From Lojkania enalia (lineage: Eukaryota; Ascomycota; Dothideomycetes; Pleosporales): DNA of 64,000 bases. The notes under the pieces were generated by a model. That model had not been told where the DNA came from. It was given only the letters and a program-made list of their open reading frames with translations, and ran no database searches. Made by a program: the position numbers and the translations under genes. Shown here piece after piece: positions 30,046-64,000 of this stretch. How positions within the stretch are numbered: position 1 is the first letter of the stretch; each line of letters starts with the position of its first letter. Location: the NCBI GenBank assembly GCA_010094045.1, contig ML986597.1, forward strand, positions 399,154-463,153, in the 5' to 3' direction.

Positions 30046-30785
30046 AGAAATATATAACTAATAATCGTAATTAACTATTATACGTTACTTCTTACTCTTA
30101 TATAGCGCTTATTACCGTACTCTTTATTACAGTTCTTATTACTATACTTACTACTAGTATTCTACTTACTATTATACTAGTTAGCTAGGTATAGACTTAA
30201 TCTATTATATACTAGTCTATAAGTATAGCTTATTATTATACTATAATTATTATATATATATAGTAATAGCGCTTAAAGATAATAAGAATTATCTCGCTTA
30301 AGTTTAAAGGTATAGATCGACATAGTAATATTATATAAATTATCCTTATATTATCGCTATAAGGCTAATAATAACTTATTAGTATAATTCTAAAATTCTA
30401 GAGGTTAGATACTATATATTACGAATTTTAGGAGTAATAAAAGTTTAGTGTTAAAGCTATAATAGATATACTCTATTCTACTACGAAATAAAGCTCTTAT
30501 AATCTATAATAGGCTGGTAGATAGGTATAAGTTAGGTTAGAGTTAGGGTCTTACGTAAGTAGGGTAGAGTTAAGATTAAAGTCTTACTAATTAGTCTAAG
30601 ATATAGGTAGAGTTAGGGTAGCTGCTTAGTAATAGAGTATAGGTTAAGATAGGGTTATATAGACTAGGTTTCCTTAGGATCTAACTAATTAGTATACTTT
30701 AGAAAGTAGCTTAGTAAGAGTATATATAGTATAATATTCTAGAGCTTTATTATAGCTATTTATTATAGATTAGGCTAATCTTACT
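30046..30785. other. Unassigned DNA with G-rich TTAGGG-like stretches
   Basis: No gene was recognised. At about 30,525-30,660 several GTTAGGTT, GAGTTAGGGT and AGTAGGGTAGAG units occur, which resemble the degenerate telomere-like repeats at 36.6 and 62.7 kb but are not clearly tandem. Confidence 0.4.
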
Positions 30786-31029
30786 TTATTAGATTCTAGG
30801 ATAGTATACTATAGTATATTGTAGACTGTAGTAGTACGCTCCTTAACTATTAATCTTATATAACTTAATCTAATATAATAATATATTTATAATAGTAATT
30901 TATTATATAAACTATAGAGGTTTATAAATTTCTCGATAAATATACTTTCGCGGCAGCTCCTTATTAGTAGTAGTACTAGGATTAATATTCTTCTAGTTAA
31001 TCTCCTAGTTAATCTCTAGTTCTTTATTA

Positions 31030-33480
31030 TATATCTAGGCTAGAAGTTTAAAAAGATCTGTAATCTTATTAGTACTATAAAGAGGGCTTAGCTTATTAGT
31101 ATCTTAAGTCTTTATAACCTAGTATACCTCTTTAGTATAATAGTTCTCTCCGCTTATTATATATTTTAAAAATATAATATCCCGGATTCTCTATATAGTA
31201 AGGTAATATCTTCTATCTTTAATTATATCCCTAGTAGTATTAAAAACCCGTTTAATATTAACTCCTATAATCTATATTAGAAGAATATCTCTTATAACCT
31301 AAGTAAGCCGCAGATACTAATATTTGTTTACTCTCCACCAGCCTAATATATTAAAGTTATAACCTCGAATAGGAGGTATATTTAGATAGCTTTCTCCTTC
31401 TTAATAAGTTGGTCCTTTCTCTTCTTCCTCTAACTCTCCCTCTCCCTCTCCCTCTCCCTCTCCTACATTACTTAGATCCTGGCCTAGAAAACTTAAGGAG
31501 CTGCTTGAGGATAAATATTATAGAGATAGTTTACGAAACTATTTATTACTTTATATCTATTAAGGTTAGAGCGTTATAGATAAGGTATAGCCTAATATAT
31601 CCTTATTATAGTAATTAAGATATTTAAGGAATTGTTAGCGATAAATTTCTCTATATTAAAGGTTCTAAGTCTTATTTTATAGTTATAGTTAAAAGCTAAT
31701 ATAATAAATAGCTGTAATAAAAGTACCTTATATATTATAAGCTTTTAGAATAGATCTAAGATTATTATATAGTTAAATAAGTAACTATACTTTACGTCTA
31801 TTTTTAAGTAGTATTTACTTAATTTAGATCGACCCTTCTCTACTATAGCTCTTACTACTATTAGCTAATCTAAGTTACTCTCTACATCTTTAACTAAATT
31901 CCTATTTATATTATCTAGGAAATTGAAGAGCTTATTATATATTTGCTAAATATACTAGATCTAAGGCTTTATATTCTTACTAAACGCTTCGGTTACCCTT
32001 TTAAAATTATTGAGTAGGTCTATAATTAGTATTAAATAGTACTATTTAGTAGTAGATAGTCGAAGTTATTAGAGATTATAGAAATCTACCTTAGTATTCT
32101 TATTATTACTAGATCTCTAAATAGGGATTTTTAAGTTAATTTTATATTAAAGCTAGTTGTTAATATATTATTTAAGGCCTACTACTCGGTTATATATATT
32201 AAATATCGAATTCTATTAAGTTGAAATATCTCTTATTATAGACAGCCGGTACTTAGATAGTAGGGAGCCCTATAAAGTAATAAAACGCTTATAGCGCTAT
32301 AGCAATTAATTAATTACTTTATAAATAGCTTAAATCTAATTAGGAATTAGTATATAATAATTATAATAACTAACTATAATAAAAAGCTATACCTTATAAA
32401 GAGAATTTAAGATAGAAATCTATATCTAAATCTTATTTATATTATATTACCGTAAAGTTCTTCTATCTCCTATCTCTTTAGGGGGTATAAGTTTAAGATA
32501 GTAAATAATTTCCTAAACAACAAGATTAATAATATAAATAAGGTATAGAATTGTATTCTCCTTATAATCCTATTTAATACTATCTTCGCGTAGTTTCTCT
32601 TATATTATACGTATAAGTATACTATTATTAGTAGTATTATTATAGGTAGCTGCTAGTAATCGTCGTTATATATTTATATTTAATAGAATATATAGTACTT
32701 CTATTACTATAGAAGTACTAGTATAGCTTCCTCGAATAGGGATAAAATTAAATAGTCTCTTGTAGAACTTCTAGTCCTAATTAATATAGTACCCTTTTAC
32801 TGTAAGGAAACTAAGGTAGTTCTTTATAAACTAGGTATTAAACGCGATTAATATCTTTGTACTTTAGCTAAGGTTATATAAAAGAGAGGACTAAACTACT
32901 ATAATCTTATATTTAAATAGCCCTATAAAACTAAATTAGCTAATTAATATAGTATTTAGTTAGAAGAACTAAACAAATTGTTAAAAAGACGGGTAATCTA
33001 CTATTTAGAAAGACTAGTTATTATTAATAATAATACGGACTAGTTTATACTTAAAAACGCTAGTAGAGTATAGTAGTATAATTAGATCTTTATTATTAAG
33101 AGGCCTAGCTATAAGTATATAGAATCTATTATACTTAGGAGCTAGAGTTTTTAGACAGGCCTAAGATCTAAGGTAATTTATTAGATACTTTATACTATTA
33201 TAATTCTTATTTAAATATATAAGTTAAAAGTTATAGTAGTAATAGAATATAAATAGGTAACTATCTAGAAATTATATAACTTCCCTAAATTGTCTCTAGA
33301 TCTTACTATAATAAGTAGCTAAATTCTACCTTAATTTGTTAAATATATTTAAAAGGTCCTAAGCCTATAGTATTAATTCCTACTATACTATCTATATATT
33401 AATAAGTTCTATTACCCCCTATCTATCTTCTTTATCCCCTATCCGCAGATATATAATTAGCTAATAGGTTTCTTAGAAAC
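31030..33480 (-). pseudogene. hAT transposase relic with C-terminal dimerisation domain
   Basis: On the minus strand, the C-terminal part (about 31,030-31,330) reads VIRDILLI, then VNIKRVFNTTRDIIKDRRYYL and IRDIIFLKYIISGENYY. This is the hAT dimerisation domain of cut-and-paste transposases. Upstream (about 31,520-32,480) lie helical stretches such as VINSFVNYLYNIYP, EAFSKNIKP, LSKYYLKIDVKYSYLFNYI and YKRFIAL-GS typical of the RNase H-fold body. The N-terminal zinc-finger part is only weakly visible up to about 33,480. Stops are RIP-type throughout. hAT assignment is strong for the C-terminus and fair for the rest. Confidence 0.75.
31434..31463. repeat. (CTCTCC)n hexanucleotide microsatellite
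   Basis: About five hexamer units. On the minus strand they fall within the hAT transposase relic between the catalytic body and the dimerisation domain, where they would encode a Gly-Glu or Arg-Gly repeat. Confidence 0.9.
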
Positions 33481-33651
33481 TTTAATAAGAAATCGATAGA
33501 GTATCGATCGCGAGATACTAGATTTATATTAATATTAATATAATTATAATAAAACGCTATAATAAAGAATAGTAGGAATATTATAATATTACGGGTATAT
33601 AAGGAATTAGGGTTAATAATCGAGAGTATCTAGCTATAAATTATGTTTATA

Positions 33652-33659
33652 GACTACTG

Positions 33660-33698
<39 letters not shown>

Positions 33699-33699
33699 A
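33652..33699. repeat. (CTA)n trinucleotide microsatellite
   Basis: About 15 CTA/TAC units, perfect over 33661-33697. It lies inside the right end of the hAT relic. Confidence 0.95.
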
Positions 33700-34099
33700 T
33701 ATATATAAAACCCTAGTAAAATAGTAGTATATTATACTATTATATTAAGTATTTATTTTTAGAGATAATAGGTTTTATTACTAAACGGTATACTAATACT
33801 ATACTCCTAATAGTATATAGGAGTCTGCTATAGTATATCGCAGAACGCTGTAGTCTAGAAAATACTATAAAATATAGTAAATTACTATTATATATTATAA
33901 AATATAGTTAATTACTATTATTTAACGTACTATAATATACTATAAGATACTATAGTATACTACCTAAAATCTAATAACCACCCTAGTCTATTTTACAATA
34001 TACTACTATAGTCTATAATATAGTATAATATACTACTCTAGTTAATTAAATTTATATATATAGGGAAGTAGTATAAATAAAATTTATATAGTATTAGAG

Positions 34100-35372
34100 A
34101 AGTATATTAGATTTTCTTCTACTAACTACTAGTAGTAAGGGCTAAGCTAATCCTTATTTATTAAAGTATTATTATCCGAGAAACTATTAAAATCGGTTAT
34201 ATCTTTATCTAAGAAACTTTTAAAAGTACTATCTAACTTCTTATTTAATATCTTATACTTATCCTTATATTATATAAGCTTAGCCTTAATTTTAGAGTTA
34301 TTATTAACCTTCTCTTTGTACTTATCGCTTTTAATACCTTTAATATAGGGTAAGTTTAAATCGAAAAGAAGATTATTATTAAATTAATTATATACTAATA
34401 GAGGCTTTTAATATCTAGGGTAGTAATTAGTATATATCTGTAATAAATAGATGTAATAAAAAATATAATAAACTTACTTCTACTCTAGCTCTAAAATTAT
34501 AGCTAACTCTTCCTTAGATAGTCCCTTAATAAACTCTTACTATTTATTTTAAGCATCCTTACTTTTAAAGCTATTATTTTATAGCTTAAGAAGGCTATTT
34601 TAGTATATCTTATATATAACCTTCTACACAGCCCTTCTAGAGCTATATATCCGTAATAGACCACAAGCTAATTCTTATATAGTAGATATATCTTTCTTTT
34701 AACTAGTAGCCTTTAATAGAACTGTTTAGTAACGTCTAAGACTAATCTCTTAGTCGATATACTCCTATTTTAAGTAGATAGCCTTTAGCCTTACCTTTAA
34801 CTAATTACCTATTTACTTATAAGTATATATATATATAATAAATAACTGTAATAACTTATTAGACTTATAATTGTTAAAGCGCTTCTCTACTATAGCTTTA
34901 ATAGCTTTATCTAACATCTTTTTTTTTTCTTCTTCCCCTAGCACTATATATTTAGTACTTTTCTATAGCTGCCTCTTCTTAGCACTTTTAGTAGAGCGAT
35001 TAGTAGTATAGGTACTCTTAATAGCCTTTTCCTTAGTAGTAAGCAATATAGTCTTATCTCTCTGTTAGATAGCGCGCTTAGTATTGTTAAGTATACCCTT
35101 AAAGGGTACTATAAGGTTAATTAAACGGCCTTTTTAAGAACCAGCTTAACCGCGTAATAAAAGAACATATTTAATTTTATAATCTTTTAACTACCAGCCC
35201 TATATTTATTAGTAAACTATAATAAAAGACTAGTATAATTACTTACCTATATTAACTTCGCCCACTTATCTTAGTCGAAGCTAACTAGTAGCTCTAATAG
35301 CTTTAGTAGTAGTAAGCTATCTAGACTATTAAGAAAATTGTTGTTAATAGGCTCTACTTTAATAGTTAACAT
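34100..35372 (-). pseudogene. Intron-bearing small gene relic, divergent from the H3-like gene
   Basis: Starts at an ATG at 35370-35372 and reads MLTIKVEPINNNFLNSLDS, then LLLLKLLELLVSFD and DKWAKLI. A well-formed 47-bp intron follows (donor GTAAGT from 35246, branch TTACTAAT, acceptor ATATAG ending at 35200). Exon 2 continues LKDYKIKYVLLLRG and then a Lys/Arg/Thr-rich tail near 34,930-35,060 (STKSAKKRQL). Another donor/acceptor pair is possible at 34477/34438. The helical start with a single Trp resembles small Myb-like nuclear proteins of fungi, but this is only a resemblance. Stops are RIP-type. The gene faces away from the H3-like gene about 490 bases off. Confidence 0.4.
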
Positions 35373-35858
35373 TTTATAGGAACTATAATAAAAGTATATA
35401 ATAAATCGAAGATTTGGAGTTACGCTAATAAGAGTATAGTAGGAAGAAGAGTTGTAGTAGGGTGTTAGGCTCAACGCGACGAGTGTATATACTACCTACT
35501 AATATAGATTAGATAGAAATAATAATAAAATATATATACATCTAAATAAATATAAAATATTAGTTGGTTTAGTATAAAAAACTATTACTAAAAAGCGTAC
35601 TACTAGTTCTATAAAATAGTAAGTTATTATAGTTTTTTATTATAGTATTCTTATAATATACGCCTAAATACCTTATTAGCTTTACTTTATAATCCTAATT
35701 TAGTACTAGCTCTTAATATATACATATCTTAGCATCTATATTTATATTTTAGATATCTATTAATAAACCTCAATTTAACTTTATACTACTAACCTTAATT
35801 ATTAATATTAACTACTCTACTCTACTACTATTAATACGTAATATCTCGTACTTAAGGA

Positions 35859-36384
35859 ATAGCACGATCTAAAATCGTTCTGATAGGTAGTAAGTTTCTC
35901 TAAAAGCAGCTCGCCGCTAAATCAGCTTATAAGGTACCTATACTAGTAAAGCCTATACTAGTAAAGTATTACTATTATCTTAGGAGTAAATTATTACAGG
36001 TTTTTATTATAGTTATATATTAATAGAATATAGCTGTCGCACTTTAATAGATTAAATAATATTAGAAGAGTATTAAACTCCTCCTTTAAAAGCTCTCTTT
36101 TTCGCGGCTAATCTGTAAAATTACTACCGTAGTTTAGGAGAATACCTATAGTAGTAAGATATATTAGTAATAGAGTGTAATTAAGGCTCTTTAAGAGTTT
36201 ATTAAAGCTTTTCTTATTAGGTTCTTTAAAGGTATATTATTTTTTATATAATTTATACTATATAATACTAACTATACTAGACTGTAATATAAATACAATT
36301 TACGTAAAGCAGGTTACTATCTAAAATAAGAATATATATTTAGTAAAGCGATACTATAAGAGGTTTAGTCTTCTATTAGATTAG
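35859..36384 (+). pseudogene. Divergent histone H3-like gene relic, copy 1 (CenH3-like core)
   Basis: Three exons (35859-35985, 36034-36231, 36281-36384) split by introns of 48 and 49 bp, giving 143 codons including the stop. The start codon is ATA (from ATG by RIP). The first intron donor is now GTAAAT; its partner copy still has GTAAGT. Exon 1 reads ARSK, then KQLAAKSA as in the H3 tail. Exon 2 has TVALRQIK-like (here with TAG for Gln), LPFSRLIRKI-like and ALQEF-like H3 helices. Exon 3 has the FED-x-N...IH-x-KR-VTI...KD pattern of the H3 C-terminus. At least seven codons are now RIP stops. Every exon and intron has exactly the length of copy 2. See copy 2 for the less damaged reading. Confidence 0.85.
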
Positions 36385-36461
36385 AGTTATAATCTCTAGA
36401 TAGTCTTAAGCTTAAAAAAGGCTACTTTAAATAAAACTAGTTCTCTACTATAATAATTTAC

Positions 36462-36540
36462 AGTAATAAATATTTAATATATAATATATAATAAATATAT
36501 AATATATAATATATAATAAATATATAATATATAATTATTT
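36462..36540. repeat. AT-rich minisatellite, arm 1
   Basis: Tandem ATATATAATATATAATAA-type units. A mirrored block lies at 62880-62947 in the other inverted arm. Confidence 0.85.
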
Positions 36541-36579
36541 CCTATAATTATAGAAGAACCCTATAGGGTATCCCTACCT

Positions 36580-36725
36580 TAATCTTATATCCCAACACTA
36601 AGAACTCTACCCTAACCTTAATCTTAATACTAAGAACTTCTATTTAACCTATACCCCAGCGCTAAGAATTCTACCTTAACTCTAACCCCAGCACTAAGAA
36701 CCCTAAACCTAACCTTAACCTAAGT
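36580..36725 (-). repeat. Degenerate telomere-like tandem repeat, arm 1
   Basis: About four ~32-bp units of the type GGGGTTAGGGTTAAGGTAGG plus GTTCTTAGCGCT when read on the minus strand. They contain the TTAGGG motif used at most fungal chromosome ends. The complement lies at 62700-62850. Confidence 0.85.
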
Positions 36726-36758
36726 AAGGTACTATATACCCTATTTATTAGCCTAATC

Positions 36759-39700
36759 TATAATAGTTAATAGTAAAAGAGCTATAGTTATATTTTATAA
36801 TTATAGCTTATATAGCAGTTACTACTTATAGAGACTAGAGAGAGCTGCCTATAGTAGTAGAGAATAAAGAAGATAGATATAATAAAATAGACAATTAACT
36901 ATTTTATACTCCATTCCCTTATATAATCTAAGCTATAATAGGTAATAATAAGGATAGTAATTTTCTAGGCGGCGGTGGTTAGAAGATAAAAGAAGACCTC
37001 TAATATATAATTTACGTAGCTAAATATTAATAACTAGATATAGAAAGAACTTCTATAATTATAAAGTTTAAGTACCTATTAATTTTCTTACTATATAGTA
37101 GTTCTTATTATATAGTAAAGGATAGTAACGTAGTATAAGGTAAAGCCTAGAAATTTAAAGGAAGATATAGAGAGAATAATAGGATATAGCTAGCTACCTT
37201 TCTACTAGACTAGTAGCTAAATACTCTAATTAAGTTTCGTTTACTAATATATTATATAGTTAAACTACACCCTCTCCTATAAGTATATAATATTATAATT
37301 AGTCGAGTTAAGTTATTAGGCTAAAGCTATTATATAATATAATACTAGCTATTTATATAATTAGCGGTATAGGAGGTTTAAATACTAATTTTAGGATTAA
37401 AGCTATATACGGCTTATTTACAGCTAATCTTAAGTAATTTATAGTAGATATAGGAACGTACGGTTTAGGAAATATTAAGTAAATATACTATTAGGCTAAT
37501 ATTAGGCGTATCTATAAAACTTAAACCCTAGGATATTAAGCCTAATACTATTAAGAGCAATCCTAGGTTAATTTAAGGTAAGTTATAAGTCTTAAGAATC
37601 TCTTAGATAACAGCGTAATACAGCCGTAGACTAGATATAGATTAGTAATATTATCTACTTTCTAGGCGTATATTAAATAGAATAGCTATATAGAAGAGCT
37701 GTAAGGCTAATTAAGTATATATATACTATCTTGCTTAAAATACGTATCTCTCTTAGGTACATCCGTCCTATATATTAGGTATATCTTTAACTCCTTAAAC
37801 TACTCTTTAATATAACGCTTGTAAAACGGATAGCTTATAATCTAAGTAAAGGTCTTACACGAACTTTCTATTACTTACTATAAAGCAGGTATATACATCT
37901 TAGGTTTAACGAGCCTTCCGCCGTACAAATAGAGCATGCAGTACCGTAGCACTCTATAGTACTAAGAATTTAAGGGTAACCTCTCCTTCTATACTTAAAT
38001 AGGTTAATTAAGGACGTAGGTGGTTTTATTTCATCGCCTATATAGACGAAGATTAAATCGACGGTTATACGGCTAAAAGCACCTTCGGAATAGAGTCTAT
38101 TTAAGATAGATCGGATAACGTATAAACCGTAATAGAGCTGAAAGGGTTAGTATAAAGATATATACCGCTGCCTAAGGGCACTTATACAACTATAGAAGGG
38201 AAGGAAATATACGCTGTTATTGCCTTAGAGCGTTCTCTTGTACCTAGCGTAGTAAAAGGTAGAGTATAACGCAGTTCCTGCAATCGCGATAAGTAATAGA
38301 AGCTATAGAAAAGGGAAGGGGTTTCGTACCTAACCGTCTTCTTTTATTCCTCTACAATAACGGTTCTTCTATAGAGTCTACGGTCGTAATAGACTCGCTG
38401 GAGAGATTAATAATATCCGCTATATTAATAGAGGCTTCTATATAATTAGTAATAGTAGAGTAAGAAATAACAGGCTTGCAGAGGCTAGCTAGAAGACTGG
38501 AACGGTTTATATAGGTAAAGTCGATACTAGTAGTAGAGTATAGTATTAACTTCCAAGATTTTAACGTATTATATATACTACTGTACCTCGAGGTGGGCCG
38601 CCTATAAGGAGCGCTTTAAGGGAACGCCGCCTAGTATCCTTTTTAAGCTACTGGGCGGAGCTTCTAAAGTTTCTACTAACTAATTAATATATCTTCTCTT
38701 AATATATAAAAGAAGTAGCTTAATTAACTAACGCTTAAGGCTTATAGTTTAAACGGCAATTATATATAATTAAGAGAGTTAATATAGTATATTACTAATT
38801 TTAAGGCTACAGTAAGTAATCGTATTAGAAGAAACGCAAGGGCTCGAACAATATAATTATAGGGCTGGCGATATACTAATATCGAGCAGGTAGATAATAA
38901 AAAGACGAGGATAGAGCTTCTATCTATAGCTGTATTCCTGCGCTAATATAAACCTATTTAGCCGGCTTATTACGTCCGCGTTTACTGAGCCTAGGATCAC
39001 AAGTACTAGAATCCGTCTAGTTAATAATAACCTCTAAGCGGTTTCCCTATAGATAGTGTTAGAGGCCTTTATACAATCTAAAGCATTGGTCCGGAGTGTC
39101 TATCCTATATAGAGCTTTACCTCCTAAGGGCGCCTTACGGCTCCTCTATAACCATCTATATTAATATCTCTACTCCTTTCCCCTTCACGCATGTAAAATG
39201 CGGTACGAGTAACCTTTAGTATAATAGTACTTATACTCTATAGCTAGGATCCTAATACTAGTCTTATATATTTGTAGTAGCAAAGTACTGTTGCTGTAGG
39301 ACGGATGGGCACAGCCGTAAAGGAAACCTGGGAGGGATAAGGGGTACGAGTCTACCTCGCATAACTAGTATACGGATGAGCAGGCCGGCTTCTTATAAAG
39401 ACGAAGAAAGAGGCGCGGTTTTATATAAGCTTAATATATCAAAACCTATACTCTTATCTAGTCCTATATACGCGATGGGGCTATTATAAAAAGAGTCTAG
39501 CTGCTAAGGCCGTTCTAGGGAGTAAGACGCAGATAGGAGCATCTAAGTATAGGTATAAAGGCTAAATTAATAGGTGCTTAGATGCAACTCTACAGCTGAT
39601 AACGCAGATACGAAACTATATATTTAAGGTATACAATGGTACTTCTAAGATATAGTATAAGGCCTCTAGAGAAGCTAACTAGGGACCTGGCTATATATTT

Positions 39701-61437: not shown

Positions 61438-62657
61438 GTACGTACTTATAATTAGCGTACTCTTATTAGAGCGTTTATATCTAAGTAAGTTCTTCTCTAA
61501 TATATTCTATAATATTCTTTATCTTATTAACTAGTCTATTAGCTTTTTAAGCTATTAGGGACTATTTTAGTAGTTAATAGATTTTTATAAGTAGTTTAAA
61601 ACTTATTTAAAGGTACTAGCTAAAGTAGGTTAGAAATAGGGAGACTTTTATTAATTTAAATACTATATTATTTACTTTAAACTATACTATTAGCAGCTAT
61701 TCAACCTAATTATCTTATTTATAGCTAGTATAGACTTAGAGAACTTATTCTATTACTATATTAACGTTCTCTATCTAACTATTAATCTTTAAATAGAAGC
61801 TAGTTAATATATATATATTAATTTATAGCTGTTTATATAGCTCTTAGTAGAAAGTAGAGATAAACTATATTCTATAGTTAGATATAATAGTATATAATAG
61901 TTTATAGTAAACCTATATATAATAATAAAATAGTTAAATAATATTAGAAGCTTTAATTCTTATATATAATATTAGGTATCTATACTTATTAAGTTTATTA
62001 ACTATTACTATAATATTTATATAACCTTTTAATTCTAATAGATTAGTTATAAAGTTTATAGAAATATTTTAAAACCTTTATTTAAGTATAGATAATAGTT
62101 TTAGTAATCTATAATATTTCTCTCTAGAAATCTTACTTCTTTAATATATATAATAATAGTCTATATATTATTATATTAAGTCGAATATCTTTAACTAATA
62201 GTACTTATATTAGAGTAGTTTTAAGGTCTTTTCTTAACTAGGGTATTTATTAGACGATAAGTTATAAATAATTTATAGCAGCTTAAACTTTAACTTATTA
62301 TAGTCTAGTATTATAAATCGATTTTAATAGTATAGGTAGTTATTATACTTTTTATAATTAGCTAAAGTTAAGAGTTTAAATTAATAGGTTTCTTTTTTTA
62401 GTAACTTTAAAGTATCTTAAATTAGATTATTATTTAGGTATTTTTTATTAATAATTTCTATAATCGATCGGCCTATTTCTATCTATTAGAATAGTTTAGA
62501 ACGAAGTAATATCTATTAATAACCTTTATAAGCCTCTTCTTATATAAGCTTATTTTATAACCTTTAAGTTAAGGTATTAGGTTTTTCTCTAAGTTTTCTA
62601 GGTTAATATATAATACTAAAGTTAAACCTTAATAGATATTTTAACTAATAGACCTAT
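61438..62657. other. Unassigned RIP-degraded DNA
   Basis: Very A+T-rich with almost no CA or TG. No motif recognised. It ends where inverted arm 2 begins. Confidence 0.3.
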
Positions 62658-62699
62658 TAGTAGGCTGGTAAATAGGGTATATAGTACCTTACCTAGGTT

Positions 62700-62850
62700 A
62701 AGGTTGGGTTCGGGGTTCTTAGCGCTGGGGTTAGGGTTAAAGTAGGGTTCTTAGCGTTGGGGTATAGGTTAGGTAGAGGTTCTTAACATTAAGGTTGAGG
62801 TTAGGGTAGGGTTCTTAGCGCTGGGGTATAAGGTTAAGGTAGGGGTACCC
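62700..62850 (+). repeat. Degenerate telomere-like tandem repeat, arm 2
   Basis: Four units of about 32 bp built on GGTTAGGGTTAAAGTAGG plus GTTCTTAGCG(C/T)TGGGG; GTTCTTA recurs near 62,715, 62,747, 62,780 and 62,811. Contains TTAGGG motifs but is interspersed with non-telomeric bases, so it is not a canonical telomere. Confidence 0.9.
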
Positions 62851-62879
62851 TATAGGGTTCCTCTATAATTACAGGAAAT

Positions 62880-62947
62880 AATTATATATTATATATTTAT
62901 TATATATTACATATTATATATTTATTATATATTATATATTAAATATT
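62880..62947. repeat. AT-rich minisatellite, arm 2
   Basis: Mirror of the 36462-36540 block; repeated ATATATTTATTATATATTA-type units next to the telomere-like repeats. Confidence 0.85.
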
Positions 62948-63031
62948 TATTACTGTAAATTATTATAGTAGAGAACTAGTTTTATTTAAAGTAGCCTTTT
63001 CTAAGCCTAAGACTACCTAAGAATTATAACT

Positions 63032-63557
63032 CTAATCTAATAGAAGACTAAACTTCTTATAGTATCGCTTTACTAAATATACATCCTTATTTTAGATAGT
63101 AACCCGCTTTACGTGAATTGTATTTATATTATAGTCTAGTATAATTAGTATTATACAGTATAAATTATATAAAAAATAACATACCTTTAAAGAACCTAAC
63201 GAGAAAAGCCTTAGTAAACTCTTAGAGAGCCTTAATTACGCTCCGTTGCTAACGCATCTTACTACTATAGGTATCCTCCTAAACTACAGTAGTAATTTTA
63301 CGGATTAGCCGCGAAAAAGGGAGCTTTTAAAGGAGGAGTTTAGTACTCTTCTAATATTGTTTAATCTGTCGAAGTGCGACGGCTATATTCTATTAGTATA
63401 TAACTGTAATAAAAACCTGTAATAACTTACTTCTAGAGTAATAGCAACGCTTTACTAGCGTAGGCTTTACTAATGCAGGTGCCTTACGAGCTGATTTAGC
63501 GGCGAGCTGCTTTCGGGGAAACTTGCTACCTGTTAAAACGATTTTAGATCGTGCTAT
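63032..63557 (-). pseudogene. Divergent histone H3-like gene relic, copy 2 (CenH3-like core)
   Basis: Three exons on the minus strand: 63557-63431, 63382-63185, 63135-63032; introns of 48 and 49 bp with GTAAGT and GTATGT donors, TACTAAT branch sites and TAG acceptors. 143 codons including the stop, close to H3 length. Tail: ARSK then, after only seven residues, FPRKQLAAKSARKAPA; canonical H3 has ten residues there, and the segment around K9 is lost. Core: SR-TVALRQIKQY, then KLPFSRLIRKI, then 21 residues before ALQEF (16 in ordinary H3, about 18 in centromeric H3), then KAFLVRFF, D-x-N...IHVKRVTI and KD-x-x-L. The stop before Q in loop 1/helix 2 could be TGG, giving the R-W-Q seen in CenH3, or CAG. 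The start is ATA from ATG. About six internal RIP stops. Histone identity is strong; CenH3 versus H3 variant is inference. Confidence 0.9.
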
Positions 63558-64000
63558 TCCTCGAGTACAAGATATTACGTGTTAATAGTAGTAGAGTAGA
63601 GTGGTTAACGTTAATAATTAAGGTTGGTAGTATGAAGCTAAGTTGAGGTTTGTTGATAGATACCCAAAATGTAAATATGGATGCTAAGACACGCACGTGC
63701 TAAGAGCTAGTACCAAATTAGGATTATAAAGTAAAGCTAATAAGGTGTTTAGGCGTGCATTATAAGAATACTATGATAAAAAACTGTAATAACTTACTAT
63801 CTTATAGAACTAGCAGTGCGCTTTTTAGTAATAGTTTTTTATACTAAACCGACTAATATTTTATATTTATTTAGATGTGTATATATTTTGTTATTATTTC
63901 TATCTAATCTATACTAGTAGGTGGCACGTGCGCTCGTCGCGTTGAGCCTAATACCCTACTACAATTCTTCTTCCTACTATACTCTTATTAGCACAACCCT

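Follow-up and report, generated by a model that had tools for sequence, protein, structure and literature searches.

Among the matches listed in a literature search, hAT-borne histone H3 genes were found by title or abstract in only two papers, PMC3538342 and PMC6710886, which are represented here, like the other publications cited, by excerpts. In Pyrenophora tritici-repentis, a hAT element contains a transposase gene, a central open reading frame (ORF) and an H3-like gene (Manning et al. 2013, PMC3538342). The elements are ~5.6 and 2.3 kb long, and 26 nearly identical, mostly intact copies of the H3-like gene with expressed sequence tags (ESTs) are reported. H3-like copies borne by hAT elements and killed by repeat-induced point mutation (RIP) were described in six Mycosphaerellaceae of the genera Pseudocercospora, Cercospora and Sphaerulina (Dhillon et al. 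2019, PMC6710886). The elements of P. fijiensis are 9.5-9.9 kb long. Each has the H3 sequence once or twice, which was interpreted as a captured intronless transcript or a retrocopy, and the second copy of an element has a 16-residue insert. In these excerpts the cases are taken as separate accidental pick-ups of a housekeeping histone gene. Here an element of this kind from Lojkania enalia is analysed. The window, i.e. the whole stretch of 64,000 nucleotides (contig C20, positions 399154-463153; the assembly comprises 58.1 Mb in 400 contigs), contains at 63032-63575 on the minus strand a gene that is confirmed as three-exon and H3-like. This gene, designated H3L, is cargo of a 6,249-bp hAT DNA transposon (element 1). 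An earlier note on this DNA overlooked the carrier, as well as the fact that hAT-borne H3-like genes have been in print since 2013, with the second report in 2019.

Like the gene of P. tritici-repentis, H3L has an insertion in the H3 tail and is most likely neither H3 nor the centromeric variant CenH3. Unlike there, the element is 6.2 kb long, all 32 copies examined are broken by stops, and the protein has a Trp and a long loop 1. The central frame of element 1 stands at the place of the P. tritici-repentis "central ORF of unknown function". The elements of PMC6710886 share with ours the RIP-killed H3-like cargo and the 8-bp target-site duplication (TSD), their terminal inverted repeats (TIRs) being 18-20 bp long, and also the clustering of sequences away from the resident H3; in P. 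fijiensis the copies are confined to AT-rich blocks. In contrast to P. fijiensis, each element here has one H3L gene, and this has two introns. The 16-residue insert of P. fijiensis corresponds to 48 nt, which is the length of intron 1 of H3L, and may thus represent an unspliced intron. No Pyrenophora-named protein and no H3L of P. tritici-repentis or of Mycosphaerellaceae was among the matches listed. Three features are found in neither paper, as far as the excerpts extend, and are regarded as new: the own introns, the separate clade and the absence of K9 from three of the five H3L types.

Structure of the gene and its carrier

Spliced in silico, and with X in place of its stops, the window copy is assigned to Pfam Histone at E 3.6e-20; the score is 72.9 bits, compared with 39.7 bits for the single frame found without splicing. 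A chance match to a histone is ruled out by this value. Two weaker Pfam matches, to CENP-S (E 2.8e-6), which only just passes its cut-off, and to CENP-T_C, which does not reach its own, are taken as cross-hits of histone folds. The three exons with splice signals and the H3 fold proposed in the earlier note are borne out, and its second copy was found within element 2; the gene limit had to be moved, from 63557 to the true start 18 nt further upstream (Table 1). With 6 internal stops and no ATG, the window copy is dead and no protein can be made from it.

The H3-like gene is multi-copy and lies between the TIRs of the element. Three H3L-bearing elements of 6,237-6,252 bp have common boundaries, the TIR TAGGCTGGTA and 8-bp TSDs; complete elements with common boundaries, TIRs and 8-bp TSDs number four. 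The short TIRs typical of hAT elements read TAGGCTGGTA... and ...TACCAGCCTA (TACTAGCCTA in element 1), and the TSDs CCTATTAG, GAAAATAC and ATCTATAA are exact, while TTTACTAT/TTTACTAC agree in 7 of 8 positions. The far end of element 1 is an imperfect inverted copy of its TIR TAGGCTGGTAAATAGGGTATA. The C-terminal hAT dimerisation domain PF05699 was recognized with E 5.7e-13 in a piece of the copy on contig C194; the RNase-H-like piece PF14372 of the transposase reached E 1.8e-4, below its cut-off, and a DUF659 search gave no match to the transposase, nor did it match any control. H3L occupies one strand of the element, and a lysine/glutamate-rich central frame and the hAT transposase the other. 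In element 1 both lie beyond the window edge, the dimerisation domain at C20:467172-467408 and the central frame at ~C20:463197-464400 (element positions ~1384-2600). This frame probably contains an intron; its pieces gave nothing significant against Pfam, nor did one piece against PDB.

For 15 of the 40 listed H3L copies, a match to the hAT dimerisation domain or the transposase end lies 3.5-7.5 kb off in matching orientation (that of the copy on contig C3 comes from a DNA search, not from Pfam). Of the 25 others, at least 6 are too close to a contig end for such a match to be present, a minimum because the lengths of some contigs were not available. The tandem repeat just inside the TIR of element 1 is G-rich, with GGTTAGGG-like words.

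Table 1. Features of the H3L-bearing hAT elements in the window (window positions unless a contig is given)
Feature	Position	Strand	Remarks
H3L exon 1	63431..63575	-	145 nt; tail; ATA at the start codon
H3L intron 1	63383..63430	-	48 nt, GTAAGT...ATAG; phase 1, inside the T45-equivalent codon
H3L exon 2	63185..63382	-	198 nt; TVALRQ...FFK; histone-fold core, long loop 1, R-W/stop-Q
H3L intron 2	63136..63184	-	49 nt, GTATGT...CTAG; phase 1, inside the D106-equivalent codon
H3L exon 3	63032..63135	-	104 nt; D-YNINTIHVKRVTI...KRYYKKF..., TAG at the end
TSD of element 1	62653..62660		8 bp, CCTATTAG; same 8 bases after the far end at C20:468062
hAT element 1, part in window	62661..64000		continues to C20:468062; 6,249 bp in total; starts with TIR TAGGCTGGTAAATAGGGTATA
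Subterminal tandem repeat	62713..62844		~32 bp x 4.1
hAT element 2	30510..36755		complete; opposite orientation; TSD ATCTATAA at 30502-30509 and 36756-36763
H3L of element 2	35841..36384	+	13 internal stops; heavily RIP-mutated
hAT dimerisation domain PF05699, element 2 transposase	31164..31397	-	with stops; C20:430317-430550

Copies across the assembly and their decay

The DNA search listed 40 H3L copies, namely all those scored among 125 candidates, so this number is a lower bound. The 32 copies examined comprise 31 of these (nine were left out) and one on contig C125 found by the Pfam search only. The coding sequence is 447 nt long in all but one, where it is 462 nt and in frame. The GT donors of both introns are intact in every copy, the AG acceptors in 26 (intron 1) and 28 (intron 2). 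The start codon is ATG in 6 copies and ATA in 26, the window copy among the latter. Every copy is broken by stops; in the 31 copies of equal length, internal stops fall at 17 codon positions, 15 of which hold a sense codon in at least one copy.

A comparison of three full elements gives 613 transitions against a single transversion (27 gapped columns excluded), and 362 of the transitions stand in the pure CpA/TpG context of RIP. The gene is therefore situated within RIP-mutated repeat DNA, as had been proposed, and the low number of transversions indicates that the three elements were nearly identical before RIP. The density of stops fixed in the three full copies is similar for the transposase, with 9 in 719 codons (introns may be included), and for H3L, with 2 in 148. 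The fixed stops of H3L therefore do not single it out as already dead before the family spread, and equally give no proof that it was then alive.

Two H3L copies on contig C28 (402302-402845 and 403964-404507) are only 1.66 kb apart. Their left TIR ends and flanks agree, their read-through proteins are identical and a single hAT match serves both; either the pair was duplicated in tandem later on, or the assembly is at fault here.

Features of the H3L protein

Read from the upstream start, the tail of H3L is MSRTRGTARSKIVLTGSKSPRKQLA, three residues longer than that of H3. The position of K4 is occupied by Arg (codon 5 is CGA in 13 of 31 copies, TAA in 17 and CAA in 1) and that of K9 by Ser followed by Lys; K14-, K18- and K27-like positions are kept. 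The three-residue tail deletion of the earlier note is thereby replaced by an insertion with K4R and K9S: it had arisen because the start was placed 18 nt inside the gene. The absence of the ARKS motif of K9 holds, as do the five extra residues of loop 1, which precede R-W-Q (the resident CenH3 has three). The Trp of this motif, suggested as possible, is real: codon 93 is TGG in 10 of the 32 copies, TAG in 22 and CAG in none. At the C-terminus RYY stands in place of RRLRG, so that K4, K9 and the RRLRGER-type end of canonical H3 are all lacking. H3L resembles CenH3 (CENP-A, Cse4) in the Trp of loop 1, at the start of helix 2, and in the longer loop; it differs in its C-terminus, in its position in the tree and in its tail, which is of H3 type with PRKQLAAK and ARK kept.

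Relatives and phylogenetic position

Profile searches (best 120 of 5,537 and best 120 of 7,989 matches listed) gave four undecayed relatives, which have in common RYY near the C-terminus and N[LI]NAIH. P0041 and P0086 are metagenomic, and the partial P0055 from Paraphoma chrysanthemicola and the full-length P0060 from Massariosphaeria phaeospora originate from Pleosporales. [RK]YY occurs in 4 of the 172 listed proteins, exactly these four. The family-profile search was dominated by ordinary and tandem H3, and its best 120 of 7,989 matches added no H3L; a search with residues 86-143 of P0041 returned 6 matches, with the H3L signature only in the query and P0086. In the order P0041, P0086, P0055, P0060 the residue at the Trp site is Phe, Ile, Tyr and Phe, and loop 1 is longer than in H3 by 2, 2, 0 and 0 residues. 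Most likely, then, the Trp and the longest loop arose within H3L, and the CenH3-like traits of the window family look convergent. K9 is replaced in three of the five H3L types, by Ser in the window family, His in P0060 and Ala in P0055. An AlphaFold model of P0041 with 13 relatives (mean pLDDT, the predicted local distance difference test score, 59) gives the helix layout only. A contig of the viral collection IMG/VR (L067:1961-2269) encodes a stretch that resembles H3 and has 39% identity to P0041.

The tree comprised 23 rows, made up of 11 H3, 2 CenH3, the 4 relatives and 6 out of 11 window-family copies. All ten H3L rows lie on one side of a branch supported at 99/92. The tree thus supports an H3L clade separate from the resident H3 and CenH3, and since this clade has undecayed members elsewhere, H3L would not have been copied recently from either resident gene. 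Its introns also differ, being placed at the equivalents of T45 and D106, compared with R8 and Q125 in the resident H3 and a site between RL and VR in CenH3. Together with the tree, this rules out an ordinary pseudogene of the resident H3, in agreement with the earlier note; most likely H3L is neither CenH3 nor such a pseudogene.

Possible role of H3L and alternative explanations

The best explanation as a whole, which we consider probable, is that H3L, before its decay an H3-fold histone of ~148 residues that lacked K4 and ARKS and had a long loop 1 with Trp, is hAT cargo of a separate clade that spread, was killed by RIP and formerly aided the element through its product. Of this, the carrier, the gene structure and the decay are demonstrated, and the clade has the support of the tree. 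The 6.2-kb family multiplied mainly as near-identical copies and then succumbed to RIP. While active, H3L may have paired with H4 and entered chromatin near the element, and such nucleosomes, if poorly read by the H3K9 silencing machinery, would have helped it. H3L may have shielded the element from H3K9 methylation. Transposons with other cargo that acts on epigenetic marks make this idea reasonable, as an analogy rather than a test of it: fungal DNA transposons, hAT included, carry TET/JBP dioxygenase genes according to the excerpt of PMC12730594. The two kinds of carrier are alike in this respect and differ in that the cargo there is a methylcytosine enzyme and here a histone. If functional, H3L would give a mobile element a histone whose tail lacks the target of the silencing mark; whether transposons can make nucleosomes that resist silencing becomes open to test with the undecayed relatives.

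Several observations weigh against this explanation. Codons 59 and 129, Gln in ordinary H3, are stops in 32 of 32 copies, so an intact master H3L is not demonstrated. P0041 and P0086 retain K4 and K9, and the K9 site of P0055 is less sure, the protein being partial. The signal of the tree comes largely from the C-terminus: with this removed, support for the ten-row clade is 87/86 (96/91 for nine rows without P0060), and with Cse4 also left out P0060 moves to the H3 side, the window family and the other three relatives staying together at 94/93.

Passive cargo, the transduplication of PMC3538342 and PMC6710886, is still a serious rival, possible rather than probable: H3L would have been captured once by the hAT element, to which it was useless, and have diverged by drift. 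Drift was suggested for the P. tritici-repentis gene (PMC3538342), the copies in PMC6710886 are treated as inactivated captures in the excerpt, and two stops are fixed in all copies examined here. On the other hand, P. tritici-repentis has the same layout of hAT transposase, central ORF and H3-like gene, with ESTs of the latter, and undecayed H3L is present in two Pleosporales (P0060 and P0055), whose derived residues are common to the window family; drift alone would hardly keep these.

Judged by its introns, C-terminal signature and position in the tree, H3L points to a distinct H3 lineage, transposon-borne at least here, rather than to separate accidents. A wider proposal is that fungal hAT elements have long carried their own H3 (the H3L clade, which has RYY and introns of its own) as an anti-silencing tool, a part of nucleosomes that has repeatedly lost K9 and protects active elements from silencing by H3K9 methylation, so that the "captured housekeeping gene" cases would form one old lineage and the P. 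fijiensis insert would be an unspliced intron. We regard this as unlikely in its full extent.

Recent capture of a host H3 transcript, the retrocopy proposed for P. fijiensis, deserves little credence here. The intron sites R8 and Q125 of the resident H3 are indeed uninterrupted in H3L, and with the C-terminus cut a join to the resident H3 was not excluded, an identical H3 row having been left free. However, H3L has two introns elsewhere, only 53 of 96 fold residues (55%) of the C194 copy are identical to the resident H3 (59% to P0041, 51% to the resident CenH3), and with the C-terminus included the approximately unbiased (AU) test rejects a grouping of the window family and the resident H3 (p-AU 0.005).

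A transposon-borne CenH3 derivative, a potential competitor for centromeric chromatin, is hardly credible. It would account for the Trp of R-W-Q, whose counterparts W86 and W178 in loop 1 are reported to be crucial for CENP-A and Cse4 (PMC10755175, excerpt), for the five loop-1 residues and for the Phe of EAFL, as in the resident CenH3 (Tyr in Cse4). The H3-type tail, the RYY C-terminus and the relatives, with Phe, Ile or Tyr at the Trp site and in two cases an ordinary loop 1, argue against it. Joining the window family to CenH3 is rejected when the C-terminus is included (p-AU 0.017) but no longer when it is cut (0.14), and a clade that also includes the relatives is not rejected (0.149), only two CenH3 rows having been used. 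Of the earlier interpretation, the repeat-borne, divergent, intron-bearing H3 variant with a CenH3-like loop 1 and Trp is upheld, and the tail deletion and the kinship to CenH3 find no support. A histone that cannot be K9-methylated, as it suggested, may have existed before the decay; the present copy is dead.

The resident H3 (contig C162) ends in RRLRGERG, the ordinary H3s of the tree mostly in GERS or GERA, and an H4-like frame adjoins it on the opposite strand.
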